Source: Aliivibrio sp. EL58
GTDB lineage: Bacteria > Pseudomonadota > Gammaproteobacteria > Enterobacterales > Vibrionaceae
DNA: 64,000 nt
NCBI RefSeq assembly: GCF_900312675.1
Contig: NZ_OMPC01000001.1
Coordinates: 975,633 to 1,039,632 of the forward strand
Reading direction: 5' to 3'
The notes beneath the pieces are model-generated. The model searched no databases. It had not been told where the DNA came from and saw only the letters and a list, made by a program, of their open reading frames with translations. Of the stretch, positions 24,512-40,001 are shown in pieces; the first letter of the stretch is position 1; each line of letters begins with the position of its first letter. The position numbers were made by a program, and so were the translations under genes.

Positions 24512-26548
24512 GTGTTTGATTATTTGATGAAGAACTTTCCGTCTAATAAATATTTAGCGGGTATTAGTAATGTATTTATTATGCTACTTCCTATCTCATT
24601 ACTTTCATCGTTTTCTTTACTTGCTTCTAATGGCGCAGAGCTGTTTGAATTATCAAGCATCAGCAGAGATTTACACTTAACAAGCACGCTTATTTCACAA
24701 CTATTTCCAGTTTTACTCGTTGTCTTCTTTTCTCAATATCTAGCTTCACTTCATAAACAGCCTATCATTGCTATTATCACCTCTTCGATTTTGGTTTATT
24801 TTATTGTTTGCCTTCAATGGGGAGAAGGTGAAGGGACAGCTGCAATTCCAATCAATTTTCCTTTTGCTATTCTTCTTCCTATTTTAGTCAGCTCTTGTTA
24901 TCAATACTTTAAATTATGGTCTTTTTTTAAAGACTCACATTTACCTAGCGTAGTTGAGCGATCAATCAATCTTGTTATTTCAGTATCTACAATCAGCATT
25001 TTTATTGTTGCTGTTAGTTATGTTCTTAAATACGTTGTTTTTGATAATTTGCAACTCGAATTTGAAATGCCAACATTAGATCCTATGTCACTTTTTGATG
25101 GCATTGTTTACGAATTGAGCCGTGGGTTATTTTGGTCAATTGGTATTAATGGCCATGTGGTGCTATCAAGCTATAAGTCAGAGCTTTTTGCTGTTACAGA
25201 AGAGAGTTTGGCACTAATAGAACTTGGTAAAGGAACAATGCCTATTTTAACCAGTAACTTCTATGATTTTTACACTGGTATGGGGGGGGCAGGAAACTCT
25301 CTTAGTTTAGTGTTATGTGTGTTGATTTTTGCAAAAAATAAAGGCTATAAAAATCTTGCTCAAGCCGCATTTTTGTTAAGTATCTTCAATATTAATGAGC
25401 CGATACTTTACGGTTTACCAATCATGTTTAACCCTATAATGATTGTTCCTTTTTTAATTGCTCCTATTGCGGGATTAATTATTGCTTATTTTGCTACGCT
25501 ATGGGGCATAGTCCCGCCAATTATGGGGGTAATAAGTTGGATGACACCGCCTATCATTGGTGGCTATCTAGGAACTAATGGTGCAATTTCAGCTTCGATA
25601 TTACAAGGTGTCATTTTACTTGTAGGTATGGCTATTTATTATCCATTTTTTATGAGAATGGACAAATTAAGCATAGGTAGAACCGCTTTAGACTCATTAA
25701 CTGAACGATTCTTTTCTTCAGAAAAAATTGATACAACTAAGGCGATTGGCAGTTATATTCCGCATTTAACAAAAAATATGGCAGCCCAAAAAGAAGTTGA
25801 ACATTTGCATAAAACAGGTGATTTCATTCTTTACTATCAACCGCAATATAATGTGAAGCAGAACAAGATTGTCTCATTAGAAGCTTTAATTCGACATCGT
25901 TCATACTCAGGGAAAATTACGCCTCCGACCTTTATTCAGTCATTTTCAGAGCTTGGATTACTGGCGGAATTAGATTTTTGGGTATTAGAAAAAGCAATCA
26001 TGACAGCAAGTCTTTATGCTGATGATCCCAACTTTAAAATTTCGATTAATGTTTCTCCTGAGACGGTATTAGTACCAACATTTTTACCAACGTTATCGCG
26101 TCTTATTACGACGAGTAATTTAAAGTTTTCACAGCTTGAACTAGAAATAACAGAAGAACTGCTGATTAAAGATGAAGAAAAAACAAAGGAAATACTAACC
26201 CAACTTAGATCTCTAGGTGTTAAGATCGCGTTAGATGACTTTGGATCTGGCTATTCTTCAATTGCCTACTTGTCTCGTTTTGATTTTGATAAAGTAAAAA
26301 TTGACCGTTCATTATTATTGAATATTGATACATTGCGCGGACAAAAGCTGTTTAGGCTTTCTGTTGAACTAGGCCTGATCACTGGGGCAGATATTGTGGT
26401 TGAAGGGGTAGAAACTCCTAGTGAAGTTGAGTTTGTTCAATCACTGGGCGTTGAATGCATCCAAGGCTTCTTCTTTTATCGTCCAATGCCTATTGAAGAT
26501 ATTATAGATCTTGGCCTGGTTACTTGTGTAAAAAGTGATGTTGCTTAA
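24512..26548 (+). CDS. PTS EIIC permease domain fused to an EAL phosphodiesterase
   Basis: The 678-residue protein has an N-terminal PTS EIIC-type membrane domain (about 1-395), related to cellobiose/lactose family permeases, with the substrate-loop-like INEPILYGLPIMFNP and SWMTPPIIGGYLG. A C-terminal EAL domain (about 430-670) has an intact catalytic set: Glu457 in SLEALIRH, ISINVSPE, ELEITEEL, Asp575-Asp576 in ALDDFGSG, VKIDRS and VVEGVET. No IIA or IIB domain or gene is adjacent. The EIIC part may therefore act as a sugar sensor that sets c-di-GMP hydrolysis rather than as a transporter. The GTG start has AAGGGG five bases upstream. Confidence 0.88.
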   Translation: MFDYLMKNFPSNKYLAGISNVFIMLLPISLLSSFSLLASNGAELFELSSISRDLHLTSTLISQLFPVLLVVFFSQYLASLHKQPIIAIITSSILVYFIVCLQWGEGEGTAAIPINFPFAILLPILVSSCYQYFKLWSFFKDSHLPSVVERSINLVISVSTISIFIVAVSYVLKYVVFDNLQLEFEMPTLDPMSLFDGIVYELSRGLFWSIGINGHVVLSSYKSELFAVTEESLALIELGKGTMPILTSNFYDFYTGMGGAGNSLSLVLCVLIFAKNKGYKNLAQAAFLLSIFNINEPILYGLPIMFNPIMIVPFLIAPIAGLIIAYFATLWGIVPPIMGVISWMTPPIIGGYLGTNGAISASILQGVILLVGMAIYYPFFMRMDKLSIGRTALDSLTERFFSSEKIDTTKAIGSYIPHLTKNMAAQKEVEHLHKTGDFILYYQPQYNVKQNKIVSLEALIRHRSYSGKITPPTFIQSFSELGLLAELDFWVLEKAIMTASLYADDPNFKISINVSPETVLVPTFLPTLSRLITTSNLKFSQLELEITEELLIKDEEKTKEILTQLRSLGVKIALDDFGSGYSSIAYLSRFDFDKVKIDRSLLLNIDTLRGQKLFRLSVELGLITGADIVVEGVETPSEVEFVQSLGVECIQGFFFYRPMPIEDIIDLGLVTCVKSDVA

Positions 26549-26705: not shown

Positions 26706-26735
26706 TGATCCAAACATGAATCTCTTTCGTAATAG
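26706..26735 (+). promoter_or_regulatory. Putative ECF (RpoE-ChrR) promoter of rpoE
   Basis: TGATCC (26706-26711) plus 18 bases and TAATAG (26730-26735) lie just before the rpoE gene. The CGT spanning the -10 edge occurs at the same distance in the two related sites at 28090 and 40001. TGATC is the -35 element of the singlet-oxygen sigma factor of Rhodobacter sphaeroides, so autoregulation is expected. Confidence 0.7.
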
Positions 26736-26759: not shown

Positions 26760-27377
26760 ATGCAAACTCAGCAAATAGAGGTTAGCAGTCGAGTGAACTC
26801 TAGTTATAAGCCACTGCCAATAAACAGTGAAGAAGAGATAGCCAAGCTAGATGTTTGGTTAAATCTGGTGGGAGAAACTCAAGATAAGCAGGCATTTTCT
26901 GAGCTGTTTTCTTGGTTTGCACCCAAAATTAGAGCGTATGGATTAAAGAAATTCAATGATCCAACGTTAGCAATGGATTTAGTTCAAGAGACGATGACGC
27001 TTGTTTGGCGAAAAGCGGCCTTATTTAATCAGGCCAAAGGTAATGCCTCTGGGTGGATATTTACCGTCATGCGTAATCACAGCTTTGATATGTTACGCAA
27101 AATGCAATCAAATAGAGAAGATACGGTCAGTGACGAGTTATGGCCTCTGTTTGATAAGCAAGTCGAGGCCGTAGAGCTAGATTGGCTTGAAACTAAAAAA
27201 TTGAAAAAAGCAGTCAGTGTACTGCCTGGTAATCAGCGAGTAGTTGTTGAAGGGATTTATGAACAAGGTTTGACTCAACAAGAGCTTTCAGAACAACTTA
27301 GTGAACCAATAGGAACGATTAAATCACGGCTGCGTTTAGCATTAACCAAATTAAGACAGGAGTATGAGCATGAATAA
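26760..27377 (+). CDS. rpoE: ECF sigma factor of the RpoE-ChrR (singlet-oxygen) type
   Basis: The 205-residue protein has sigma region 2 (LVQETMTLVWRKAALFNQ, ASGWIFTVMRNHSFDMLRK) and region 4 (LPGNQRVVVEGIYEQGLTQQELSEQL, GTIKSRLRLAL). The adjacent gene encodes a ChrR zinc anti-sigma factor, which places it in the ECF11 group that responds to singlet oxygen and organic peroxides. GGAGG precedes the ATG. It is expected to direct transcription from the TGATC-type promoters found in this window, including its own. Confidence 0.92.
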   Translation: MQTQQIEVSSRVNSSYKPLPINSEEEIAKLDVWLNLVGETQDKQAFSELFSWFAPKIRAYGLKKFNDPTLAMDLVQETMTLVWRKAALFNQAKGNASGWIFTVMRNHSFDMLRKMQSNREDTVSDELWPLFDKQVEAVELDWLETKKLKKAVSVLPGNQRVVVEGIYEQGLTQQELSEQLSEPIGTIKSRLRLALTKLRQEYEHE

Positions 27378-28023
27378 AATTACCCACCATCCTAGCGATG
27401 CATTATTACGTTCTCATGTTGACGGTGATTTACCTGAATCTCTTGCTGTTGGTATGACGTTACATTGTGATTTGTGTGAACATTGTAAGCGTAAATCAGA
27501 GAAATTAACTCAAGAATTTGCAGCGAAAGCATGGCAAGAACCAGTAGAAGCGGAATTGATTGATTTTTCTCAAATGCTCAACGGTATATTAAATACTGAG
27601 GTTGAAACTAGCTATTTGAAAGAGCCATCGGTAGAACATATCTTTATTGATTCTTTTCATTATGAATTACCTCGTGTATTAACTCGTTATGTTGATATGA
27701 AATGGAATCAAATGGGAGCGGTAAGTCGTGCTCGTTTGATAGAAGAGGGAGCGACACGATCTAACTTACTGCACATCAACGCGGGTGGCGTAATCCCAAC
27801 GCATACCCATAAAGGCTTTGAGTTAACTTTATTGTTAGATGGTAGTTTTGAAGATGAATCAGGACATTATCATAAAGGTGATTTTGTTTGGTTAGATTCT
27901 TCACATGCACATAGCCCTAAAACTACTGATGGGTGTTTATGTTACACTGTACAAAATGCGCCACTGCACTTTACCCAAGGGATAAGTAAATTATTTAATC
28001 CGATAGGTAACTTATTGTACTAA
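27370..28023 (+). CDS. chrR: Zinc anti-sigma factor ChrR
   Basis: The 217-residue protein has an N-terminal zinc anti-sigma domain with His7 and the H-x3-C-x2-C motif (His32, Cys36, Cys39). This matches R. sphaeroides ChrR His6/31, Cys35/38 with a one-residue shift. The C-terminal half is a cupin with THTHKGFELT and later SSHAH supplying the His-His-Glu-His metal set. The N-terminal domain holds the sigma factor, and the cupin domain is needed for release under singlet oxygen. ATG 27370 is preferred to 27364, since AGGAG is then seven bases away. It overlaps rpoE by eight bases. Confidence 0.92.
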   Translation: MNKITHHPSDALLRSHVDGDLPESLAVGMTLHCDLCEHCKRKSEKLTQEFAAKAWQEPVEAELIDFSQMLNGILNTEVETSYLKEPSVEHIFIDSFHYELPRVLTRYVDMKWNQMGAVSRARLIEEGATRSNLLHINAGGVIPTHTHKGFELTLLLDGSFEDESGHYHKGDFVWLDSSHAHSPKTTDGCLCYTVQNAPLHFTQGISKLFNPIGNLLY

Positions 28024-28071: not shown

Positions 28072-28100
28072 AAAAAAGATCACAGGATGTGATCTTTTTT
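28072..28100 (+). terminator. Terminator of rpoE-chrR
   Basis: AAAAAAGATCAC and GTGATCTTTTTT form a 12-base stem with a five-base loop. The downstream arm contains the TGATC of the next putative promoter, so terminator and promoter share bases. Confidence 0.88.
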
Positions 28101-28119
28101 GAATGCTACCACGTAGTAT
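28090..28119 (+). promoter_or_regulatory. Putative ECF promoter of the lipid-modification operon
   Basis: TGATCT (28090-28095), 18 bases, TAGTAT (28114-28119) has the same spacing and the same CGT (28112-28114) as the rpoE promoter. It begins within the terminator hairpin. It would drive the operon from 28148. Confidence 0.6.
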
Positions 28120-28147: not shown

Positions 28148-28576
28148 ATGAAGCACTCTAATTTTGTTACTACATTTATATCACTTTATGGTGAATTAGA
28201 TCGTTCAACTCTTCATCGCCTTCCTGAAATTTATTCTAATGATATTCAATTTATTGATGCCGTACATCAAATCGATGGGCTTCCTATGCTTACCGAGTAT
28301 TTTGAACATTTATACGAGAATATTTTAAATTGTCAGTTTCATATTCATCATGTTATCGAGAATGATAATGAAGCCAGTCTTTTTTGGACGATGGAATACA
28401 GCCATCCTAAAATAGGTAAAGGGAAATGTATTTCTGTTGATGGTACTTCACATATTAAATTCAATGAAAGAGTGTATTACCACAGAGATTACTTAGACAT
28501 GGGGCAGATGCTGTATGAGCATTTACCAGTTCTTGGTTCAGCAGTAAAGCTGATTAAAAAGAGAATGCAGTCATGA
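28148..28576 (+). CDS. NTF2/SnoaL-like protein in the ChrR regulon
   Basis: The 142-residue soluble protein reads as a nuclear-transport-factor-2-like (SnoaL) fold: a helical start FVTTFISLYGELDRSTL, then YSNDIQFIDAVHQIDG and the beta-rich middle. Such proteins are small binding pockets or isomerase-type enzymes. The gene starts the operon after the putative ECF promoter. Its stop overlaps the SDR start by four bases. It commonly accompanies SDR, FAD-oxidase and Cfa genes in ChrR-linked clusters. The specific role is unknown. Confidence 0.75.
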   Translation: MKHSNFVTTFISLYGELDRSTLHRLPEIYSNDIQFIDAVHQIDGLPMLTEYFEHLYENILNCQFHIHHVIENDNEASLFWTMEYSHPKIGKGKCISVDGTSHIKFNERVYYHRDYLDMGQMLYEHLPVLGSAVKLIKKRMQS

Positions 28577-29310
28577 AAACAATATTAATCACAGGCGCAA
28601 CGTCGGGCATCGGTCTCTCTTTAACAAATAAATACCTTAAACAAGGGTATCGGGTTTATGCGTGTGGTCGTAATTTCTCTGGGTATGTTGATTCAGATTA
28701 CTTAACCAGCGCGAAAGGCAACGGGAGTTTAATTGAAGTCGTTTTTGATCTTGATGACAGCAACTCAATCCTTGACGCGCTTTCTACGATTGAAATGCTA
28801 GATACCGTAGTTCTTAATGCGGGAACGTGTGAATATATCGATGACGCGAATCAGTTTGATGCTGCATTATTTGAGCGAGTGATCACAATCAATGTCATTT
28901 CAATTGGGTATTGTTTACAAGCGTTAATACCAAAAATTAAACAGGGCGGTCACTTAGCATTAATGGGTTCAAGTGCTTCTTATGTACCATTTCAACGGGC
29001 AGAAGCGTATGGCTCAAGTAAAGCAGCAATTCATTATTTGGCAAAATCGCTTCAATTAGATATATCACCGGAACAATTTACTATTAGTGTGATTGCTCCT
29101 GGTTTTGTTAAAACGCCGCTTACAAATAAAAATGATTTCCCTATGCCAATGTTAATCGAAGTTGATAAAGCAGCAGAGCATATAATTGCAGGCATAGATA
29201 AAAATAAAAAACACATACATTTTCCATTTCCATTTACGAGTTTCTTAATTTTAATGGGAAGTCTCCCAGATCGTATTTGGCACTGGCTCGCTTTAAGGAT
29301 GAAACGATAA
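28573..29310 (+). CDS. Short-chain dehydrogenase/reductase
   Basis: The 245-residue SDR has the cofactor motif TGATSGIG at residues 6-13, NAG at about 90, and catalytic Ser (MGSSAS), then Tyr-x3-Lys in YGSSKAA. It is a NAD(P)H-dependent oxidoreductase. The substrate is probably a lipid or aldehyde, judged by its neighbours. It is coupled by a four-base overlap to the NTF2-like gene and by one base to the FAD oxidase gene. Confidence 0.9.
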   Translation: MKTILITGATSGIGLSLTNKYLKQGYRVYACGRNFSGYVDSDYLTSAKGNGSLIEVVFDLDDSNSILDALSTIEMLDTVVLNAGTCEYIDDANQFDAALFERVITINVISIGYCLQALIPKIKQGGHLALMGSSASYVPFQRAEAYGSSKAAIHYLAKSLQLDISPEQFTISVIAPGFVKTPLTNKNDFPMPMLIEVDKAAEHIIAGIDKNKKHIHFPFPFTSFLILMGSLPDRIWHWLALRMKR

Positions 29311-30587
29311 TGAAAAAAATTGCAGTTGTTGGTACAGGTATTTCAGGATTGGTGTGCGCGCATTTATTATCACGAGAACATGATGTAACAGTATTTGAAG
29401 CTAATGATTATATTGGTGGGCATACCGCAACAAAACGAGTAAAAGCAGAAGGAAAAGAGTGGGATATTGATACTGGTTTTATTGTATTTAATGATCGAAC
29501 TTACCCAAACTTCATTGAGTTATTAACTCAACTTGGTTTATCTGGGCAAGAAACAGAAATGAGTTTTAGTGTTAAAAATGTTATTTCTGGTCTTGAGTAT
29601 AATGGCCATAATTTGAATACGCTTTTTGCTCAACGCTCAAACTTATTTAATACTAAATTTTTATCCTTAATTAGTGAGATTTTACGCTTTAATAAACAAT
29701 GTAAAGAGATGTGGAGTGTGGAGCACAGTGATGATCACATCGATCTTGATGTTGATGGCACGTTAGGTGATTTCTTATACCGTAATGAATACAGTAGCTA
29801 TTTTTCTGAGCACTATATCTTGCCGATGGGTGCGGCTATTTGGTCATCCAGCTTACAAGACATGAAAGCATTCCCGTTGCACTTTTTCATTCGTTTTTTC
29901 CATAATCATGGCCTGTTAGATATTGCGAATAGACCTCAATGGTATGTGGTGCCTAATGGTTCTCATTCATACATAAAACCTCTGATTGCGACGTTTAAAG
30001 ATAAAATTCATTTAAATAGCCCAGTAACCAGTGTGACTCGAAATCCTAGAGGAGTAACGTTAGAGATAAATGGTGAAGACAAGCATGACTTTGATGAAGT
30101 GGTATTAGCTTGTCATAGCGACCAGTCACTAGCAATGTTAAGTGATATTACAACCGCTGAAAAAATAGTGCTAAGTAAACTCACTTATCAAGAAAATGAA
30201 GTCGTTATGCATACTGATGAGAGCTTATTACCAATACAAAAACGTGCATGGGCAGCTTGGAATTATCATCTGGATACGGGGAATAAAAATAACCCATCCA
30301 GTGTGACTTATAACATGAATATTCTTCAAGGATTAGAAACTAAAGAAACAACATTTTGTGTCACTTTAAACAATTCCCCTTTGATTCATAAAGATAAAAT
30401 ATTAGGTTCATATAAATATGATCATCCTGTGTTTAATACAGACACCATAGAAGCACAAGCTCGTCGAGAAGAAATTTGTGGTCGACACCATACCCACTTT
30501 GCTGGTGCTTATTGGTATAACGGTTTTCATGAAGACGGAGTAAGAAGTGCGCTTGATGTATGCCAACGTTTTGGGATTAGCCTATGA
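29310..30587 (+). CDS. FAD-dependent amine-oxidase-like protein
   Basis: The 425-residue flavoprotein begins with the dinucleotide-binding motif [15 protein letters not shown] and continues with [15 protein letters not shown] and [15 protein letters not shown]. It ends with the FAD-contacting [20 protein letters not shown]. It belongs to the NAD(P)/FAD (amine oxidase) proteins that neighbour Cfa-type methylases. In R. sphaeroides such genes take part in furan fatty-acid synthesis in the singlet-oxygen regulon, so a fatty-acyl oxidation or desaturation is likely. The start moves from 29277 to ATG 29310, overlapping the SDR stop by one base (TAATG). Confidence 0.88.
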
Positions 30588-31315
30588 TTAATTCTTGCCT
30601 TTATCACGGTGATGTAAGACACAGACGATTTCAAACTAAGGCGCATAGTTTTAGTTATCAGATGTTCTTTATCGCCTTAGATTTGGATGAATTAGAAAAA
30701 ACAGAACAGGTGGGGTGGTTCAAAAAAGGGCGTTTTGCTCCCCTAAGTTTTCGACGTTCTGATTATCTTGGCAGTCAGGATGAATCTTTAAAAGAATCGG
30801 TGTGGAATAAAGTGAGTGAATTGGGTGGAAATAACAGCCAAGGTCGAGTGCTTTTTGTTGGACAGGTTCGTTGTTTTGGGCTTTATTTTAGCCCAATTAA
30901 TTTTTATTACTGTTATAACCAACAAGATGAATTGACGGATTTACTGGCTGAAGTGAGTAATACGCCGTGGAATCAAACTCACTATTACTTAATAAAAATT
31001 GGCTCTGAGCAAATCATAGATAAAACCTTTCATGTATCGCCTTTTTTGGATCTGAATATGAAATATCATTGGTTTATTAAAGCGCCAAGCAAGCGATTAT
31101 CATTACATTTAGAAAACCGTGGTTTAGATGAAGAACAAGAAAAAATTTTTGATGCAACGATCGCTATGACACGAAAAGAATTTAATTCAAAAAATATACG
31201 TGAACAAGTGATCTCTATTCCCGTAATGACCGTAAAAATAGTATGGGGCATTTATTGGCAAGCATTGAAATTATTCATAAAACGAATCCCGTTTGTGCCA
31301 CACCCAGAGCAATAA
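30584..31315 (+). CDS. DUF1365 family protein
   Basis: The 243-residue protein contains [20 protein letters not shown] at the N-terminus and [15 protein letters not shown] and TFHVSPFLD in the middle, all hallmarks of DUF1365. The family almost always sits beside FAD oxidase and Cfa-like genes, as here, and its biochemical role is unknown. It overlaps the upstream gene by four bases, so it is co-translated. Confidence 0.9.
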
Positions 31316-31325
31316 GGAGAGAGCA

Positions 31326-32600
31326 ATGGCTAGTAATCAAATAGAGAGAACAGTATTGAAAGAGTCAGTTCTAAGCAATGATAAAAACAATAAGCCAATG
31401 CGCTGGATTGATGGTATGGCGCGTAAAGTGTTATTGGATTACTTAGGTAAGATGACTCAAGCCTCATTGACGATAAACGATGAATTAGGGCAAGTTGTTT
31501 TGGGAGATCCATTAGCCTCTTTGCAAGCTGTTGTAGAAATTAATAATACCGAAGCGTATCGAAAAATTTTATTCGGTGGTGGTATTGGCGCGAGTGAGGC
31601 ATATGTTGCTGGTTGGTGGACAAGTCCAAACTTAACAAAGGTTATTCAAGTGTTAGGCCGTGAAGAAGGCGTACTTGATAGAGTAGAAAATAGCTTTAGT
31701 AAACTGGTTCAATTTTTTGATTTAATCAACCACAAGCGGAATAAAAATACCAAAGAAGGGTCTAAAAAGAACATTTTAGCGCACTATGATCTCGGTAATG
31801 AAATGTACAAAATGTTTCTGGATAAAGAAATGTTGTATTCAAGTGCTATCTATCCTAATGCCGATGCAAATTTGGAAGAAGCTCAGTTATTTAAATTACA
31901 CACTATCTGTGAGCGACTTGAACTAAAAGAAGGTGAAACCTTACTTGAAATAGGCACGGGATGGGGAGCGTTAGCTATTTATGCAGCACAGCATTATGGC
32001 GTAAATGTTACCACGACGACGATTTCTGATGCTCAATATGACTTTGCAGAGCAGAGAGTAAAAGCCTTAGGTCTAGAAGGCCGAATTACGCTTCTAAAGC
32101 AAGATTATCGTACTCTTGAAGGTCAGTATGACAAATTAGTTTCGATTGAAATGATAGAAGCGGTGGGACACGAATATCTAAGCACTTTCTTTGATGTATG
32201 CAGTCGACACCTTAAACCTGAAGGTAAAATGTTAATTCAAGCAATTACCATTGCAGATCAACGTTACGACCAATACCGTAAAAGCGTCGATTTTATCCAG
32301 CGTTATATATTTCCTGGGGGCTGTTTACCCTCAGTTAGTGTCATGGCAAATAAAGTGGCACAAAATACAGATATGGTGATTACTTCACTACATGACATAG
32401 GCTTAGATTACGCCAAAACATTACGCCATTGGTATGAACGTTTTGACGATGCAAATAGTGATTTAAAACAGATGGGTTATGGCGATGATTTTATTCGTTT
32501 ATGGCAGTTCTATCTTTGTTACTGCGAAGGTGGTTTTTTAGAACGCAAGATCAGCACTGTGCATTTAGTGGCTGCGAAACCACAAAACGGGGTGTATTAG
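31326..32600 (+). CDS. cfa: Cyclopropane-fatty-acid synthase family methyltransferase
   Basis: The 424-residue protein has a short N-terminal lipid-binding part and a SAM-dependent methyltransferase core: LLEIGTGWGALAIYAA (SAM site), SIEMIEAVGHEY and FIQRYIFPGGCLPS. These are the Cfa signature blocks, and YCEGGF near the C-terminus is also typical. It transfers a methylene or methyl group to unsaturated acyl chains in membrane phospholipids. In the ChrR context this may be protective modification or a furan-fatty-acid step. The start is ATG 31326 with AAGGAGAG upstream rather than the frame start at 31293. Confidence 0.9.
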   Translation: MASNQIERTVLKESVLSNDKNNKPMRWIDGMARKVLLDYLGKMTQASLTINDELGQVVLGDPLASLQAVVEINNTEAYRKILFGGGIGASEAYVAGWWTSPNLTKVIQVLGREEGVLDRVENSFSKLVQFFDLINHKRNKNTKEGSKKNILAHYDLGNEMYKMFLDKEMLYSSAIYPNADANLEEAQLFKLHTICERLELKEGETLLEIGTGWGALAIYAAQHYGVNVTTTTISDAQYDFAEQRVKALGLEGRITLLKQDYRTLEGQYDKLVSIEMIEAVGHEYLSTFFDVCSRHLKPEGKMLIQAITIADQRYDQYRKSVDFIQRYIFPGGCLPSVSVMANKVAQNTDMVITSLHDIGLDYAKTLRHWYERFDDANSDLKQMGYGDDFIRLWQFYLCYCEGGFLERKISTVHLVAAKPQNGVY

Positions 32601-32618
32601 CCAATTAGTATTTGTTTC

Positions 32619-32666
32619 ATACCAATCTGAGGGAGTAGTTGAATTACGACTTATTTAGGTTGGTAT
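32619..32666. repeat. ATACCAAYC inverted repeat between cfa and the DUF2878 gene
   Basis: ATACCAATCT (32619-32628) is inverted as AGGTTGGTAT (32657-32666). The 48-base element is a short relative of the 175-base element at 42546-42720. It lies within the operon, between two co-directional genes, and would form a hairpin in the mRNA. Confidence 0.65.
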
Positions 32667-32680
32667 GGTAGGAGGCTTCA

Positions 32681-33250
32681 ATGTTACGTTATTTCCCTAT
32701 AATCAATGCAGTCTGGTTTCAATTGATTTGGTTTGCAGTGATCCTTTATCAACAGCAAGCGGTTCCTTTTTTACTCGTTTCAATATTGCTTCATCTATTG
32801 GTATCTCCAACACGGAAAATTGACTTTTATTTATTCATTTTAATTTCGATGTTAGGTGTTTTTGGGGACGTATTACTGTCTTTTACAGGCGTATATCAAT
32901 TCTCTAATGATGTACTTATACCTGTGTGGCTTATTTTATTATGGTGTCATTTTGGTTTTGCTATCAATCACAGCTTAGGGTGGTTATCTCGTTTCAATCT
33001 TGGACTTATTGCTTTAATTGGTGCTATTGCAGGTCCATTAAACTATTTAGCCGGTCATCGATTAGGTGCTGTGGATTTCTCATATTCATATCAAATCACT
33101 TTATTTTCAATTGGAGTGATCTGGGCGGTCAATCTACCCGTATTTATTATTATTCAAAAGCGTTTAAGAGCAAGAATAAATAATGAGGGGAAGGATCATG
33201 AAAAGCTTGATAAGTATACTCACCATAGTAAGCCTGTTAACAATAAATAG
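32681..33250 (+). CDS. DUF2878 family inner-membrane protein
   Basis: The 189-residue protein has about five to six hydrophobic segments and a basic C-terminal tail. The central GDVLLSFTGVYQF and PVWLILLWCHFGFAINHSL match the DUF2878 family as I recall it. Its function is unknown. In ChrR-type clusters it accompanies cfa and the DUF3833 lipoprotein, which suggests a membrane-lipid role. GGAGG precedes the ATG. It overlaps the next gene by 53 bases. Confidence 0.8.
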   Translation: MLRYFPIINAVWFQLIWFAVILYQQQAVPFLLVSILLHLLVSPTRKIDFYLFILISMLGVFGDVLLSFTGVYQFSNDVLIPVWLILLWCHFGFAINHSLGWLSRFNLGLIALIGAIAGPLNYLAGHRLGAVDFSYSYQITLFSIGVIWAVNLPVFIIIQKRLRARINNEGKDHEKLDKYTHHSKPVNNK

Positions 33251-33701
33251 TGTGGTTGCAGCCCCATTACAAGGTCTACAAAGCAGCGGAAAGTCAGAAT
33301 TGTCATGGTTTTTAATTTCAGTGTATGAAGCACAACTGTTTACCACTTCAGGTCAGTTTGTCTATGGTCAATATCCACAAGCACTTGAGATTGAATATTA
33401 TCGTAACATTACTAAAGAAAACCTAATTAAAGCGACTAAAGATCAGTGGGAAGAGCAATCAATTAAACACCCTGATTTAGATTCATGGTTGGTTGAATTA
33501 GAACAAGTATTTCCTGATGTGAAAACTGAAGATAAATTGGTTTTTAGCATTGATGAGATAGGGAATAATCAGTTTTTTCTAAATGATAAACCTATTGGAA
33601 CAATAGCAAATAAAGACTTTTCTCAGCTTTTTCTTGATATTTGGGTATCTGAAAAAACAACGTATCCAGATCTACGTCTTGAATTGATAGGAGATAAATA
33701 A
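33198..33701 (+). CDS. Periplasmic chalcone-isomerase-like protein
   Basis: The 167-residue precursor has a signal peptide (about 1-22, ending VVAA-PLQG) and a chalcone-isomerase-like fold marked by LSWFLISVYEAQLFT and QALEIEYYRNIT. In bacteria these proteins are periplasmic and thought to bind fatty acids rather than flavonoids. AAGGATC precedes ATG 33198, and the frame start at 33183 lacks a signal. It overlaps the DUF2878 gene in another frame and the lipoprotein gene by one base. Confidence 0.8.
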   Translation: MKSLISILTIVSLLTINSVVAAPLQGLQSSGKSELSWFLISVYEAQLFTTSGQFVYGQYPQALEIEYYRNITKENLIKATKDQWEEQSIKHPDLDSWLVELEQVFPDVKTEDKLVFSIDEIGNNQFFLNDKPIGTIANKDFSQLFLDIWVSEKTTYPDLRLELIGDK

Positions 33702-34219
33702 TGAAAAAGGTAGTCCTATTTATTTTTAGTATTCTATTAGTAGGGTGCTCTTCTCAAGACATTAATGATTACGCAGGCACTAGCCCTGAGTTTTCGATGA
33801 GATCATTTTTTCAAGATGATTTAAAAGCAGAAGGGATAGTAAAAGACTTCAATGGCACGGTTATTAGAACATTCACTGTCGATCTTCAAGCTCAATGGGA
33901 TGGAGACACATTAACGCTAGACGAGCAGTTTTTATTTAATGACGGTGAAGAGCAAGAACGAACGTGGATTATTCAAGATCTAGGCGATAACTCATATACA
34001 GGAACGGCCAGTGATATCCTTGAAACTGCTTATGGTAAAAGTGTAGGAAACGCCCTTAATTGGAAATACTCGATGATATTAAAGGTAGATGATTCACACT
34101 ATGAAGTTGAATTTGATGATTGGATTTATCAAATTTCAGATAATGTTGTTATTAATCAAACCGAAATATATAAGTGGGGTATACAAGTTGGTGAAGTTGT
34201 ACTTGTTATCCGAAAATAA
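33701..34219 (+). CDS. DUF3833 family lipoprotein
   Basis: The 172-residue protein has a lipoprotein signal ending in the lipobox LLVGC, with the modified Cys at residue 16. The body is beta-rich (FNGTVIRTFTVDLQAQWDG, LDEQFLFNDGEEQERTW) and matches DUF3833. A Ser follows the Cys, which favours outer-membrane localisation. The function is unknown. It ends the operon before a strong terminator. Confidence 0.83.
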   Translation: MKKVVLFIFSILLVGCSSQDINDYAGTSPEFSMRSFFQDDLKAEGIVKDFNGTVIRTFTVDLQAQWDGDTLTLDEQFLFNDGEEQERTWIIQDLGDNSYTGTASDILETAYGKSVGNALNWKYSMILKVDDSHYEVEFDDWIYQISDNVVINQTEIYKWGIQVGEVVLVIRK

Positions 34220-34321: not shown

Positions 34322-35269
34322 TCATTTACATACAAGATCATGGTTACGATTTTTAATCGTTTTGTATGCTTTCATCATGTTCTCTTGTTTCACAAAGCGT
34401 TTTGGTGGGGCTAAAACCTTTAATTGATAATCAGAGTCGTCAGTAGTAACTTCTTCTGCCGGAGTGATAACCACGACATTAAGCTTAGGGTTTAATTTTA
34501 CTATTTGTGCCGCAGTGCCTAGACCATTCTCGATATGAAACTTTCCTGCAATATGCATGACTTGCGCTTTAGGGTGTAGCGCTAAGTAATTAACAATGCT
34601 TTCTGCCATCGTGGCATCCCACGTCATTTGAGCTGCAAATTGTTTTTGAGTTTGTTCTTCGTCACCATGATGCATAGAAGCTAAAAATTTTGACTTATAA
34701 GGGGACTCAGCAAGGTCGATGTTTTTAGCTAACCATGACTTTTCATCAACATCGAGTTTATCTAAATAGCTAATACCTTGTTGGCCAATGCATTTTACGA
34801 TTGGTTTTGGAGCATTTGCTGCGATAATATCACGTCCTTCAGCCTTTGCGATTTCAACTAATGGGCGATAATCACTTTCATAATTAGGCCATGCCTTAGC
34901 TTCTGACATTAATGTTTGTTCGCCAATTTGTCCTGTTAAATACTCATCCACAACCATCTGTTTATCACGACTGAATTGCTCCATAGATAATGCTAATTTA
35001 GGCTCTGTTGCAGAGAGTTGCTTAAATAGATCCGTTTGAAAACGGTGGATAGCGGCATGAGTGTGCCATTCACCAATAAGAATTACATCAGCATCAATTA
35101 TCTCTTGAGGTAAAGCACTAAGGGACAAAGGAGAGCTTGTTGGTGAGAGTAATTGATAATCATAGAAACTGGTGATAGCTTGAGAGGGAACTGGTGTTGG
35201 CTGAATTTGTTGGCTGCAACCTGACAGTAAAAGTATCGCAACAAAAGACAATAAAACGGTGGATTTCAT
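34322..35269 (-). CDS. ChaN-like haem-binding lipoprotein
   Basis: The 315-residue protein begins with a lipoprotein signal ending LLSGC. The body has the ChaN/Tiki-like motifs ADVILIGEWHTHAAIH, LSMEQFSRDKQ and VMHIAGKFHIENGLG. ChaN of Campylobacter binds haem and is iron-regulated. A Fur-box-like sequence 60 bases upstream supports iron control here. It probably works at the outer membrane. The downstream plus-strand operon is convergent. Confidence 0.85.
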   Translation of the reverse strand: MKSTVLLSFVAILLLSGCSQQIQPTPVPSQAITSFYDYQLLSPTSSPLSLSALPQEIIDADVILIGEWHTHAAIHRFQTDLFKQLSATEPKLALSMEQFSRDKQMVVDEYLTGQIGEQTLMSEAKAWPNYESDYRPLVEIAKAEGRDIIAANAPKPIVKCIGQQGISYLDKLDVDEKSWLAKNIDLAESPYKSKFLASMHHGDEEQTQKQFAAQMTWDATMAESIVNYLALHPKAQVMHIAGKFHIENGLGTAAQIVKLNPKLNVVVITPAEEVTTDDSDYQLKVLAPPKRFVKQENMMKAYKTIKNRNHDLVCK

Positions 35270-35625: not shown

Positions 35626-37506
35626 TCAGTCACTTGATTTAGGCAAGAAGGAAATAGATTCTCCTTCCGCGGTTAAAATCGAAATCTGCTCCGGCTTGCC
35701 TTTTTCATCCAATCTTAACTCCCCAATTGAACTTTTATTAATTAGCTTATCGTTATTGGTAACGGATGGATCGCGTTTAGTGACTAATAAATTCTTACGT
35801 TTCGTGAACCAGTTTAACGGTGAGTGCGGGCTATAGAGTACTCTGTCCATAAAATCACAAAAACGTAATAGCTTATTGGGAAATTCATTTTTAAAGCCAC
35901 TGCAAGTAATTTGGTAGATATCAGGGCTTGATTTACTGTGACGCAATTTAATGTCATAGGCGAAAGAATAATGCACATCACCAGATAGAATGACAAAGTT
36001 TTGTGGTGTTTTAGGGTGAGTAAGAATACTCAATAATGTATTCGCTGAGCCTGGGTGAGCCATCCAGTTTTCTGCATCAATCACTAACGGTTGTCCTAAC
36101 ATAGTCATTGTTTTTTGCAGGGCTTCAATAAATTTAACCCCAAAAATAGGCGCAGCAGAGACGATGATAATCGCTTCTTGTCCAATAAGCTCATGCTGAA
36201 AATCAAGCATTGCCTCCCAATCCATCAAACCTGATGGTTTATTAGTATTGGATTCAGAACGCCAACGACGAGTTCGAGTGTCTAACACCACGATTTTAGG
36301 CATCGTATGGATAGAGTAATGCCATTGCTCGAATCGGGTTAAATCTCTGATAAGTTGCGTATGCTGCTCATGATTATAATCATTAAAGAGTTGACGGAAA
36401 CCATCTAAAAATGCGTCATCAAATTGCTCAGGATTATTTCCCCAGCCCTGACACAGAAAGTAGCCCATTAAGCCATTACCAATGACTTGAGCGGCGAGTG
36501 GATGCCCATTAACGGCATTCTCCCAGCCAATGGTTAAATTCCAGTCATCAGTGATGTCATGATCATCAAAGATCATGTAAGTCGGTATATGCGAAAACAG
36601 TTGCTGGACGTCATTTAACCCTTGCACAAATTGGTCAATAATGATTTTTTCTGTTTTCCAGCAAGCGTGCCATTTTTTATCTAATTTATTATCAGGATCA
36701 GGAAGTGACGCGGGCAGACTTACACATTCCCACAATGCAGGCGACCAAACTAATAAATACATGACGAAGAATTCGGCACAGGTGATTAGATGATTTTCGT
36801 GCTCACTGGAGCTAAAAATGGGACGAGACTTATATAGATTCCATCGAGAAAGAAAATTAGTATTATCAACATAGTGCGGCAAAAGCTTATCACGTTGATA
36901 AAGGTTATGTTGATGGGCGTAAAGCGAAGTACTTGTTGGGATAGCGGTATCAGGAAGCGATTCTTCAAATAACTCTAGTTGAGGAATGATTTGCTGAATT
37001 GCCATTAACATCGGTCCTGCGACATCATCTGCATAGATCTGGTCGCCACTCATCATTAATAGCGAAGCTCTCTCTTCAAGCGCTTGTGTTTTCAATTGTT
37101 GATTGGCGATGACTAAGCTGTCTTTGCTAGGATAATGAGGATTACGACATGAACCATGTAAGACATAATCTGCTTTGTCTTTAATGATGAATGAAAATAG
37201 AGATTCATTAGAATAAAGCGCATTAGGTAATAAACCAGATAATGCGCCATATTGAGTGATGATATCGTATTCGAGAGCTTGATTTACCGGAAAGTCCGCT
37301 TGGCATTGCAGTAGATATACCCAAGCATGGTGACCGATTTGAATGCATTGCAGATCGGTGATCATAAACTCAAGTGAGTTATCTGCCCATTGAATTAGGG
37401 TATGACCTTCGAGGCGTTCTGAAGTCGTTAGCCATAAGTTGACTTCAGTCGCACTCGATTTTCTAATAATAGGCCCAGCAAGAACTAACGGTAGTGATTT
37501 AGACAT
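35626..37506 (-). CDS. PhoD-like metallophosphatase
   Basis: The 626-residue protein has metal-binding motifs of the PhoD-like phosphatase family: HGSCRNPH, MMSGDQIYADDVAG, MIFDDHDITDDWN and LSGDVHYSFAYDI near residue 510. There is no signal peptide, so it is cytoplasmic, unlike secreted PhoD. ATG 37506 is used rather than the TTG at 37509. It lies 52 bases after the photolyase gene on the same strand and may be the third gene of that operon. Its substrate is unknown. Confidence 0.83.
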   Translation of the reverse strand: MSKSLPLVLAGPIIRKSSATEVNLWLTTSERLEGHTLIQWADNSLEFMITDLQCIQIGHHAWVYLLQCQADFPVNQALEYDIITQYGALSGLLPNALYSNESLFSFIIKDKADYVLHGSCRNPHYPSKDSLVIANQQLKTQALEERASLLMMSGDQIYADDVAGPMLMAIQQIIPQLELFEESLPDTAIPTSTSLYAHQHNLYQRDKLLPHYVDNTNFLSRWNLYKSRPIFSSSEHENHLITCAEFFVMYLLVWSPALWECVSLPASLPDPDNKLDKKWHACWKTEKIIIDQFVQGLNDVQQLFSHIPTYMIFDDHDITDDWNLTIGWENAVNGHPLAAQVIGNGLMGYFLCQGWGNNPEQFDDAFLDGFRQLFNDYNHEQHTQLIRDLTRFEQWHYSIHTMPKIVVLDTRTRRWRSESNTNKPSGLMDWEAMLDFQHELIGQEAIIIVSAAPIFGVKFIEALQKTMTMLGQPLVIDAENWMAHPGSANTLLSILTHPKTPQNFVILSGDVHYSFAYDIKLRHSKSSPDIYQITCSGFKNEFPNKLLRFCDFMDRVLYSPHSPLNWFTKRKNLLVTKRDPSVTNNDKLINKSSIGELRLDEKGKPEQISILTAEGESISFLPKSSD

Positions 37507-37558
37507 CAATTAATACAACTCTTAATAACAGATGAGACCATCATAATACTTGCTATGG

Positions 37559-38998
37559 TTAATTAGCAACATCCTGAGCTTTGGCGTGCTTATAGATATC
37601 TAATGTCTTTAATCGTTGTACTGAATGCTCAATGAGAGGATCTACGTAATTATCCGGTTTTAATAGCGGCTTGTTATTGGGTTGATGCAGTAGCTTTCCT
37701 GTTAGTTCCGATAACTCTGGTAGCCAATGTTTAATAAAAACACCATTACTATCAAACCGTTCGCTTTGTGTTGTGGGGTTAAATATGCGGAAGTAAGGCG
37801 TACTGTCGCAGCCTACTGATGCGCACCATTGCCAGCCTCCATTATTCGATGCAAAGTCACCATCAATAAGTTTTGACATAAAGTACTGCTCGCCCCAGCG
37901 CCAATCAATGTGTAAATCTTTGACTAAAAAACTGGCAGTGATCATGCGTAAGCGATTATGCATCCAACCGGTAGTGTTGAGTTGTTTCATTGCAGCATCA
38001 ACAATAGGAAAGCCAGTATCGCCTTTACACCACTGTTCAAATTTGTCTCTGTTGTTATTCCATTGAATGTATTTGTCAAAGCTTAAAAAAGCGTGGTTTT
38101 TAGATAGCAATGGATAAAAGTGAAGTAGATGAGTGTAGAACTCTCGCCATATTAATTCATCAAGCCAAATTTCTTGTCCCTGAGTTAGTTGGTTATTGGC
38201 CTCTAAGTGTAAACGTAAAATGCACTGTTTTGCTGAAATCGCGCCAATAGCTAGATAAGGTGAGAGTTGACTCGTCCCTTCAATTGCAGGGTAATCTCGT
38301 TGGTCATGATATTGTTGTGATTTTTCGCGACAAAACTGACGCATAGCATTGACTATCGTTTTATTTGAAACTGACCACATCTTGCTTTCATTACTGATAG
38401 AGCCAGTAAATGTAGGGTCATGATAACGTTGAAGTGAGCTTAATTGTGTTGCCGATAACTCAACTGAAGCTGTCACTTTTTCAATGGTTGGAAAGTGTTG
38501 ATAAAAGTACTCTCTCCATGCTTTTTTAAATGGCGTAAAAACTTTATAAGGCTGATGAGTTTTATTCAGTACTTTTCCAACTTCTACCGCACATTTGGCG
38601 TCATAAAAAGCACATTGAACATCAGAGAGTTGTGTTACAACATCAGCATCTCGGCTTAATTCGTCAGCCTCATATTCTTTATTGGCAAATAAATGTGATA
38701 TACCAAGATCTTTACATAATCTGTGCAGTTGTGGTGGAACATCCTTGAACCAAGGACAAGATAATACCAGTAAAGGAATATGTAATGAGTGAAGCTCTTT
38801 TTCAAGCTCAAGTAAGCGCCTCTTTATCAAATCAATTTGAATTGAGGCTTTATTGTGTCGTTGCCATTGCGATTCACTAGCTACAAAAATAGCGACAGTA
38901 GGGGCTTGATTTGCAAGAGCAGCAGATAACGCCGGGTTATCGGCCACTCTTAAATCAGTACGAAACCAAACGCATTGCATGGTTGGTTTATAATCCAT
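37559..38998 (-). CDS. phr: Deoxyribodipyrimidine photolyase
   Basis: The 479-residue protein has the class I CPD photolyase layout: an antenna-binding Rossmann domain (VWFRTDLRVADNPALS) and an FAD-binding helical domain (LDELIWREFYTHLL, TGFPIVDAAMKQLNTTGWMHNR, DGDFASNNGGWQWCASVG). WCASVGCDSTPYFRIFNP is diagnostic. It repairs UV pyrimidine dimers using blue light. It overlaps the upstream DUF523/DUF1722 gene by 11 bases, as with ybgA-phr in E. coli. The operon has a TGATCC promoter-like motif, tying it to the RpoE-ChrR response. Confidence 0.95.
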   Translation of the reverse strand: MDYKPTMQCVWFRTDLRVADNPALSAALANQAPTVAIFVASESQWQRHNKASIQIDLIKRRLLELEKELHSLHIPLLVLSCPWFKDVPPQLHRLCKDLGISHLFANKEYEADELSRDADVVTQLSDVQCAFYDAKCAVEVGKVLNKTHQPYKVFTPFKKAWREYFYQHFPTIEKVTASVELSATQLSSLQRYHDPTFTGSISNESKMWSVSNKTIVNAMRQFCREKSQQYHDQRDYPAIEGTSQLSPYLAIGAISAKQCILRLHLEANNQLTQGQEIWLDELIWREFYTHLLHFYPLLSKNHAFLSFDKYIQWNNNRDKFEQWCKGDTGFPIVDAAMKQLNTTGWMHNRLRMITASFLVKDLHIDWRWGEQYFMSKLIDGDFASNNGGWQWCASVGCDSTPYFRIFNPTTQSERFDSNGVFIKHWLPELSELTGKLLHQPNNKPLLKPDNYVDPLIEHSVQRLKTLDIYKHAKAQDVAN

Positions 38999-39932
38999 AT
39001 CGTAATCTCAGTTCTTGAGGATATGGATTAAGGAAAGATTGCTTTGCTAAGTACTCATTGGAATGAATACCTAAATGATGCTTAATTAAGGTAATTGGTG
39101 AAAGCAAAGGCAATAACCCTTGATTGTAGTCTTGGATTATTTGAGCTAATTCAACCTTTTGTGGTGATTGAAGTTCTTTTTTGAAATAGCCTTGTAGGTG
39201 CATTAATACATTCGTATTGTTTTTACGAGAAGCTCGGATCGCCATTGTCTGCATTAGCTGTGTACGATAAATTGCAAAAAACTCATTAATGTCATATTCC
39301 GCCACTTTAGCAACTAATTTACCTAAGTTTTTGTACCCAACGGTTGAGTGCGACATCAGGGTGTATTTATAACGAGAGTGAAAGGCGATGATTTTCCCCG
39401 CGGTTGGTTCACCATCCATAGATTTATACAGGTCATTTAAACAAAAAACACGAGTAATAAAGTTTTCTTTAAGTACAGGGTCACTCAATCGGCCGTCTTC
39501 TTCTACTGGCAGCCAAGGCATTTCTTTCATTAAGATTTGAGTGTAAAGACCAACCCCATTTTTTGTAGCACTGTTTTTACTGTATACCTTAACTCGTTCC
39601 ATGCCACAGCTTGGTGAATTCGCACAAACTATATAACCGCACATTTCTGTTTCTTTCAGTCTATCAACCGTTTTTTGAGAAAATTCGATCATTGAATCAG
39701 TGTAGTCTAAAGATGCATCTTTTGAGTCAACAAGGGCAATTCTCTCTTCGTTTGTGATTAAACGTATTGTCGGCCTTGGTACTGACATACCACTACCAAC
39801 TTCTGGACAAATAGGAACATAAGTAAAGTACGGGGCAAGGACTTTAGAGGCAAATTTATTGCTTTTATGGCCACCGTCAAAACGAACACTTTCACCGTTA
39901 ACACAGGAACTTATACCAACTTTAATATCCAT
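38988..39932 (-). CDS. DUF523-DUF1722 protein (YbgA-like)
   Basis: The 314-residue protein has an N-terminal DUF523 domain (VGISSCVNGESVRFDGGHK, CPEVGSGMSVPRP, ANSPSCGM with conserved Cys) and a C-terminal DUF1722 domain (SRYKYTLMSHS, LMHLQGYFKKELQ). E. coli splits these: YbgA, the DUF1722 protein, also precedes phr. The role is unknown, but the partnership with photolyase is old and widespread. The start is ATG 39932, with GGAGAG upstream, rather than 39965. It is the first gene of the photolyase operon. Confidence 0.9.
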   Translation of the reverse strand: MDIKVGISSCVNGESVRFDGGHKSNKFASKVLAPYFTYVPICPEVGSGMSVPRPTIRLITNEERIALVDSKDASLDYTDSMIEFSQKTVDRLKETEMCGYIVCANSPSCGMERVKVYSKNSATKNGVGLYTQILMKEMPWLPVEEDGRLSDPVLKENFITRVFCLNDLYKSMDGEPTAGKIIAFHSRYKYTLMSHSTVGYKNLGKLVAKVAEYDINEFFAIYRTQLMQTMAIRASRKNNTNVLMHLQGYFKKELQSPQKVELAQIIQDYNQGLLPLLSPITLIKHHLGIHSNEYLAKQSFLNPYPQELRLRYGL

Positions 39933-39971
39933 GATTGACTCTCCATTGCTTATTTTTATTATCAATGAGTA

Positions 39972-40001
39972 ATTAAACGAATTAACTCTCTATTTGGATC
40001 A
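39972..40001 (-). promoter_or_regulatory. Putative ECF promoter of the photolyase operon
   Basis: On the minus strand, TGATCC runs from 40001 to 39996. After an 18-base spacer comes TTTAAT (39977-39972), with CGT at the edge as in the rpoE and lipid-operon promoters. It ends about 40 bases before the DUF523/DUF1722 start. This would place photolyase under RpoE-ChrR control. Confidence 0.6.

Follow-up and report, generated by a model that had tools for sequence, protein, structure and literature searches.

A ChrR-associated operon of Aliivibrio predicted to make furan fatty acids, with a candidate accessory set for envelope lipids

The Ufa pathway of furan fatty acid synthesis is known from the enzymes of Rhodobacter (Cereibacter) sphaeroides and R. 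palustris, and DUF1365 was identified as UfaO in the same work (Lemke 2020, PMC7380195). In R. sphaeroides, deletions of RSP1087 (SDR) and RSP1088 (DUF3833) left the furan profile unchanged (PMC7380195), and RSP2143-2144 encode a photolyase and cfaS (PMC5507510). Gammaproteobacteria (Shewanella, Marinomonas, Pseudomonas) have been reported to form furan acids from cis-vaccenate (PMC3528120), and a UfaM that a gammaproteobacterium encodes in a contiguous ufa cluster yields 11-methyloctadec-12-enoate in E. coli (PMC12089945). Here we analysed a 64,000-nucleotide stretch of the Aliivibrio sp. EL58 genome (the window), which holds an operon whose products, under ChrR control, very probably convert cis-vaccenoyl phospholipids to a monomethyl furan fatty acid. 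While the three-enzyme pathway is already known, the accessory set is the new element of this operon.

Locus layout and predicted regulation

By Pfam search the eight operon genes, from SnoaL_2 to DUF3833, all lie on the plus strand directly downstream of an rpoE-chrR pair, and they are tightly packed, most neighbouring genes overlapping at ATGA or TAATG junctions (Table 1). Pfam confirmed the SDR, FAD oxidase, DUF1365, Cfa methyltransferase, DUF2878, CHI-like and DUF3833 proteins named in the initial annotation, which had however left out the SnoaL_2 gene at the head of the operon. For the CHI-like gene, start and signal peptide were judged from the sequence, with 33198 as the likely true start. 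DUF1365 is found in 108 of 121 Vibrionaceae genomes, and in 104 of the 108 sampled loci an FAD gene lies directly upstream of it on the same strand. The gene set is therefore not a chance assembly.

Table 1. Features of the locus in window coordinates
Feature	Coordinates	Strand	Basis or remark
Predicted sigma-E (RpoE/ECF11) promoter of rpoE-chrR, TGATCC-N16-CGTAAT	26706..26733	+	Motif and spacing as in Shewanella promoters
rpoE, encoding an ECF sigma factor of a type controlled by ChrR	26760..27377	+	Pfam and NCBIfam
chrR, cupin-type anti-sigma factor, singlet-oxygen sensing by homology	27364..28023	+	Cupin_7; NCBIfam anti_sig_ChrR TIGR02451, 180 bits
Terminator-like hairpin after chrR	28073..28101	+	-14 kcal/mol, z -4.2
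Predicted ufa operon promoter for sigma-E, TGATCT-N16-CGTAGT	28090..28117	+	58 bp upstream of the first start codon
SnoaL/NTF2-like protein, accessory	28148..28576	+	Pfam SnoaL_2
SDR, RSP1087 counterpart, accessory	28573..29310	+	Pfam; top match in the genome for the SDR of the Cereibacter operon
UfaD homologue, predicted to desaturate the methylated acyl chain with FAD	29310..30587	+	Pfam Amino_oxidase/NAD_binding_8; alignment with Cereibacter UfaD
UfaO homologue (DUF1365), predicted furan-ring-forming oxygenase	30584..31315	+	Pfam DUF1365, E 1.9e-77
UfaM homologue (annotated Cfa), predicted SAM-dependent methylase of cis-vaccenoyl chains	31326..32600	+	Pfam CMAS, 8e-85; tree
DUF2878 protein, hydrophobic, probably in the membrane, accessory	32681..33250	+	Pfam 2e-39; co-occurrence with DUF1365
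Accessory CHI-like protein that may bind fatty acids, with an apparent signal peptide	33198..33701	+	Chalcone_3 on 33183-33701, 5e-12
DUF3833 lipoprotein, RSP1088 counterpart, predicted lipocalin-like beta-barrel	33701..34219	+	Pfam 1e-65; co-occurrence with DUF1365
DNA photolyase, likely member of the same regulon	37559..38998	-	Adjoins the operon in many relatives
DUF523/DUF1722 (YbgA-like) protein	38988..39965	-	Upstream of and overlapping the photolyase gene
Possible variant sigma-E promoter serving the DUF523 and photolyase genes, TGATCC-N16-CGTT	39974..40001	-	By eye; one base off the motif

Two features of a core RpoE-ChrR (ECF11) regulon are present, namely adjacent rpoE and chrR genes with a cupin in ChrR and a sigma-E promoter motif before the genes. 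The ChrR protein is 30% identical to R. sphaeroides ChrR of PDB 2z2s. TGATCY-N16-CGTA stands before rpoE and again before the operon, and it agrees in motif and spacing with the sigma-E promoters mapped in Shewanella (PMC4336711). Across gammaproteobacterial loci carrying rpoE, the motif stands before rpoE in 20 of 23, against about 0.15 expected in shuffles. Scanned genome-wide, TGATCY-N18-TARTA barely exceeded its control (16 matches versus 12), and the refined TGATCY-N16-CGTA showed no enrichment (8 matches versus 9 in the reversed control), so that the assignment to the regulon rests on promoter position and conservation. The many motif matches located 77-256 bp before SnoaL in relatives resemble photolyase coding sequence, i.e. 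similar DNA, and were excluded as promoters. The right arm of the hairpin after chrR contains the -35 element of the operon promoter; this hairpin is absent from the list of the consensus terminator scan.

Homologues of the Ufa enzymes

The genome collection gave no locus from R. sphaeroides itself, and the two sister species Cereibacter johrii and C. azotoformans stood in for it. Their loci reproduce the order and gene lengths of RSP1087-1091 beside rpoE-chrR (SDR 245, DUF3833 186, MFS 401 and DUF1365 249 aa). The sole full CMAS gene of each, taken here as Cereibacter ufaM, adjoins a photolyase gene, which matches the RSP2143-2144 arrangement. Compared with the Cereibacter proteins, the window encodes a UfaD with 37% identity over 98% (E 5e-98), a UfaM with 39% (E 2e-89) and a UfaO with 25% (E about 1e-21), together with an SDR (30%, 2e-32) and a DUF3833 protein (30%, 9e-31). 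UfaD is the single match in this genome, DUF1365 is present in one copy, and the only full-length CMAS gene is that of the operon. In UfaO the residues that are invariant across its family (H13, R15, E123, Y135, K147, SPF152-154 and Y161) are all conserved, and UfaD has nearly all of its own invariants. No DUF1365 was detected among the viral contigs searched or, by sequence search, among solved structures, and the UfaO model had no significant match in the PDB (best E 0.013).

The initial annotation had proposed such alignments as a check, and two of its statements change. It had called the gene set related but not identical to the Ufa genes, whereas UfaM, UfaD and UfaO are all present and the SDR and DUF3833 genes are counterparts of RSP1087 and RSP1088. 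It had also described four members as lacking a known biochemical function, but DUF1365 has one as UfaO (PMC7380195).

In a tree of CMAS proteins all operon copies and the Cereibacter UfaM form one clade (99% SH-aLRT), separate from E. coli Cfa and the other stand-alone CFAs. Within it the window protein sits in a gammaproteobacterial subclade, sister to the subclade holding Cereibacter UfaM. All 90 operon copies and seven photolyase-linked UfaM proteins carry Gln at the position of His266, which in Cfa is a ligand of the catalytic bicarbonate, while 21 stand-alone CFAs keep the histidine. We considered this exchange as a block on ring closure and hence as proof of a furan product, and dropped the idea because cotton GhCPS1/2, FAD-CFA fusions that have active-site changes in common with UfaM (Gln for His266), make cyclopropanes (PMC3132707). 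The replacement is a lineage marker only, and for the same reason membership of the UfaM family does not fix the product.

Proposed pathway, alternative readings and accessory set

According to the proposed mechanism, singlet oxygen would inactivate ChrR and free sigma-E for transcription of rpoE-chrR and the operon. UfaM would then methylate cis-vaccenoyl chains of phospholipids to 11Me-12t-18:1, which UfaD would desaturate to 11Me-10t,12t-18:2. By addition of an oxygen atom from O2 and ring closure, UfaO is predicted to yield the monomethyl furan acid 9M5-FuFA, expected to quench singlet oxygen in the membrane. The chemistry is that described for R. sphaeroides and R. palustris. What the enzymes do here, on which substrate and with which product, is inferred, as are the accessory roles; the present analysis establishes which genes there are, their homology, the placement in the tree and the promoter motif.

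The furan and singlet-oxygen reading, already put forward in the initial annotation, is the best supported, since the sole full-length homologues of the three Ufa enzymes lie in the operon, the sigma-E motif precedes it and gammaproteobacteria are reported to form furan acids. We counted against it the low identity of UfaO to the Cereibacter protein, the sister position of the window CMAS subclade, the cyclopropanes of GhCPS1/2 and the use of two sister species for R. sphaeroides. A light-stress-induced operon for cyclopropane (or cyclopropene) fatty acids, with the methyltransferase as a cyclopropane synthase, appears very unlikely. A blue-light study of V. cholerae takes this view and names the counterpart VC1122 a CFA synthase (PMC5241685), and both the Pfam CMAS match and the cotton fusions agree with it. 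However, the tree groups the operon CMAS with UfaM, its score of 289 falls below the NCBIfam Cfa cut-off of 400, its near-strict linkage to DUF1365/UfaO is not needed by a cyclopropane pathway, and Agrobacterium homologues made no cyclopropane in yeast (PMC3132707).

The divergence of UfaO, together with SnoaL-like, DUF2878 and CHI-like genes that are missing from the R. sphaeroides-type operon, could also point to a pathway that stops before the furan or yields another oxygenated or methylated acid through a diverged UfaO or UfaM, for instance a diene with a methyl branch or a furan that differs in chain length. The retention of the UfaO invariants and of nearly all those of UfaD makes this outcome highly improbable. 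Finally, the operon might mainly signal rather than scavenge, its lipids or proteins promoting ChrR turnover and thus feeding back on sigma-E. RSP1090 and CfaA of R. sphaeroides reportedly act in this way (Nam et al. 2013), and the promoter motif places the genes in the same regulon. Such a role would be compatible with furan synthesis, yet as the main function we regard it as unlikely.

With furan synthesis as the preferred reading, the SnoaL-like, SDR, DUF2878, CHI-like and DUF3833 proteins would have no part in making the ring; their probable task is the binding, transport or repair of furan lipid or oxidised lipid in the envelope. Using Pfam models on 398 Pseudomonadota genomes, we found DUF3833 in 107 of 153 genomes with DUF1365 and in 6 of 245 without; for DUF2878 the corresponding counts are 71 and 1. 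A DUF2878 HMM of our own making strayed into CHI-like proteins, and its DUF2878/CHI counts were not used. Thus both families occur almost only in bacteria with the furan fatty acid pathway, and their genes are often unlinked to DUF1365. The predicted structure of DUF3833 is a lipocalin-like barrel. These observations suggest an envelope module handling furan lipids. More tentatively, given the near-exclusive, often unlinked co-occurrence and the lack of a furan effect of the RSP1087 and RSP1088 deletions, the five proteins may constitute a maintenance arm of the pathway, for which we found no published description: a dedicated system in the envelope for binding, moving or regenerating furan lipids once they have reacted with singlet oxygen.

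Comparison with described systems

Our prediction extends furan fatty acid synthesis to the Vibrionaceae, in which cyclopropane synthase is the usual name of the gene, and suggests that furan lipids form part of the blue-light responses published for vibrios (PMC5241685). It ties DUF2878 and DUF3833 to the pathway, so that their role becomes testable. Marine bacteria that do not photosynthesise may supply furan acids present in fish.

The locus shares with the Ufa system of R. sphaeroides and R. palustris (PMC7380195) all three enzymes, and with that of R. sphaeroides also the neighbouring rpoE-chrR, the sigma-E promoter type and the RSP1087 and RSP1088 counterparts. In R. sphaeroides, however, ufaM lies elsewhere beside the photolyase gene and not inside the operon; the SnoaL-like, DUF2878 and CHI-like genes are found here, where the MFS gene (RSP1089) is absent. 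The RpoE2-ChrR regulon of Shewanella oneidensis (SO_3386-SO_3374) has the same promoter, TGATCC-N16-CGTAAT, and an operon with ybgA (DUF523), phrB and cfa, whereas here the photolyase and DUF523 genes are separate from the operon and on the opposite strand; the excerpted text of that study (PMC4336711) makes no furan assignment for the operon. The same or a similar gene set occurs in the cfa cluster of Aeromonas salmonicida (PMC10012899) and in V. cholerae VC1118-VC1123 (PMC5241685, PMC12971978), where VC1123 is the DUF2878 protein and VC1122 the Cfa; both were called cyclopropane-related or unknown. Of these studies, only that of the contiguous ufaMDO genes of Halomonas (PMC12089945) assigns furan synthesis. 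The plant UfaM/UfaD proteins described with AtUFAO1 (PMC10940516) likewise combine an FAD oxidase with a CFA-type methyltransferase, but as a fusion, and cotton GhCPS (PMC3132707) shares the Gln at the His266 position but is fused, GhCPS1/2 making cyclopropanes.

The operon and its setting

Pfam recovers every gene named in the initial annotation and thus confirms the operon as real. At its head it also detects a gene for a SnoaL-like protein, which is additional to that list. The host genome comprises 4.3 Mb in 12 contigs, and the features surrounding the operon are compiled below together with two loci elsewhere in the genome that carry the sigma-E motif. 3' of chrR we find a hairpin with a T-run (z = -4.2), whose right arm includes the -35 element of the second predicted promoter, the one before the operon. 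Short pieces resembling the palindrome between ufaM and the DUF2878 gene do not occur above chance elsewhere in the window.

Coordinates of features around the operon and of two further motif-bearing loci of the host genome
Feature	Sequence	Coordinates	Remark
PTS EIIC domain fused to EAL domain (cyclic-di-GMP phosphodiesterase)	window	24512-26548	just before rpoE
rpoE	window	26760-27377	directly before chrR, upstream of the operon
chrR	window	27364-28023	followed by the operon
Palindrome ATACCAATC...GGTTGGTAT	window	32619-32631	within the 80 bp that separate ufaM from the DUF2878 gene
ChaN-like haem-binding protein	window	34322-35269	between operon and photolyase
PhoD-like phosphatase	window	35626-37509	between operon and photolyase
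Lipocalin lipoprotein	locus L319	1559-2086	preceded by the motif
Small gene with a CIA30 protein next after it	locus L323	632-1472	preceded by the motif; divergent from a DPRP-type photolyase-related gene

Candidates for the three Ufa enzymes

Synthesis of furan fatty acids in R. sphaeroides requires UfaM (RSP2144), UfaD (RSP1091) and UfaO (RSP1090), the last of which belongs to DUF1365 (PMC7380195), and on this basis the operon holds candidates for all three enzymes. This supports the proposal of the initial annotation that its products may make furan fatty acids. For comparison, the loci of Cereibacter johrii and Cereibacter azotoformans were retrieved via the R. sphaeroides ChrR sequence of PDB entry 2z2s. 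Their operons show the gene order and gene lengths of RSP1087-1091, and each species has one full CMAS gene adjoining a photolyase gene, in agreement with the RSP2143-2144 arrangement (PMC5507510). In the suggested search for Ufa homologues, the Cereibacter UfaD yields a single match in the host genome; for the SDR of Cereibacter, the best match is the one in the operon, and DUF1365 is present in a single copy. The predicted structure of UfaO (pLDDT 83) has no significant relative among solved structures. As a separate observation, the DUF1365 copies of three sampled genomes (G267, G487 and G502) contain an in-frame stop or give split matches, and these are possibly decaying genes.

The methyltransferase of the operon, initially annotated as a Cfa, was compared with UfaM and canonical Cfa in a tree built from 86 CMAS proteins. 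Here a single clade with 99% support unites the operon copies with the Cereibacter UfaM, separate from E. coli Cfa; two of its members (loci L075 and L077) were marked as canonical through a strand error and are in fact operon copies. All members of the UfaM clade carry Gln at the position of E. coli His266, which binds the catalytic bicarbonate (PMC11387697). This replacement is a lineage marker only, because the cotton GhCPS enzymes also have Gln while GhCPS1 and 2 yield cyclopropanes (PMC3132707). A UfaM of Halomonas, which is encoded in a contiguous ufa cluster, produced 11-methyloctadec-12-enoate when expressed in E. coli (PMC12089945). A second full-length CMAS was not found in the host genome, and therefore formation of a dimethyl furan by a FufM-like enzyme would not be expected in this organism.

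Accessory genes

Co-occurrence with DUF1365 was analysed in a single sample of 398 Pseudomonadota genomes, 153 with and 245 without this domain. DUF3833 is found in 107 of the former and 6 of the latter (p = 1e-51; unlinked in 55), and DUF2878 in 71 versus a single genome (p = 5e-34; unlinked in 17), both p values being inflated by shared ancestry. In several genomes (loci L325, L326, L327 and L344) DUF2878, the CHI-like protein and DUF3833, all or some of them, are encoded as a block apart from the ufa genes. BFA1 and Ycf58 are among the calycin-type barrels to which a model of DUF3833 (pLDDT 92) is similar. Deletion of RSP1087 (SDR), RSP1088 (DUF3833) or RSP1089 (MFS) in R. sphaeroides leaves the furan acids unaffected (PMC7380195), and therefore at least the SDR and DUF3833 are probably not ring-making enzymes. 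Within the operon, it is this accessory module that most deserves experiment.

Promoters, regulators and known systems

The sigma-E motif reads TGATCC-N16-CGTAAT upstream of rpoE and TGATCT-N16-CGTAGT upstream of the operon. It precedes rpoE in 20 of 23 gammaproteobacterial loci containing this gene (about 0.15 expected in shuffles), and it stands before 56 of the 75 FAD genes present in the retrieved Rhodobacteraceae loci (about 0.45 expected). Counted across the whole host genome, the motif is about as frequent as its control. About half of the sampled Vibrionaceae loci (L149-L168) have a nearby MerR-family regulator where others have rpoE-chrR; this is a swapped regulator beside the same genes.

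Both predicted window promoters equal the mapped Shewanella promoters in spacing and sequence (PMC4336711). Furan acids have been reported for Shewanella putrefaciens, Marinomonas, Enterobacter agglomerans and Pseudomonas fluorescens; cis-vaccenate is the proposed starting point of the route (PMC3528120). The furan-fatty-acid pathway is already known, and its assignment to this Aliivibrio is a new prediction.
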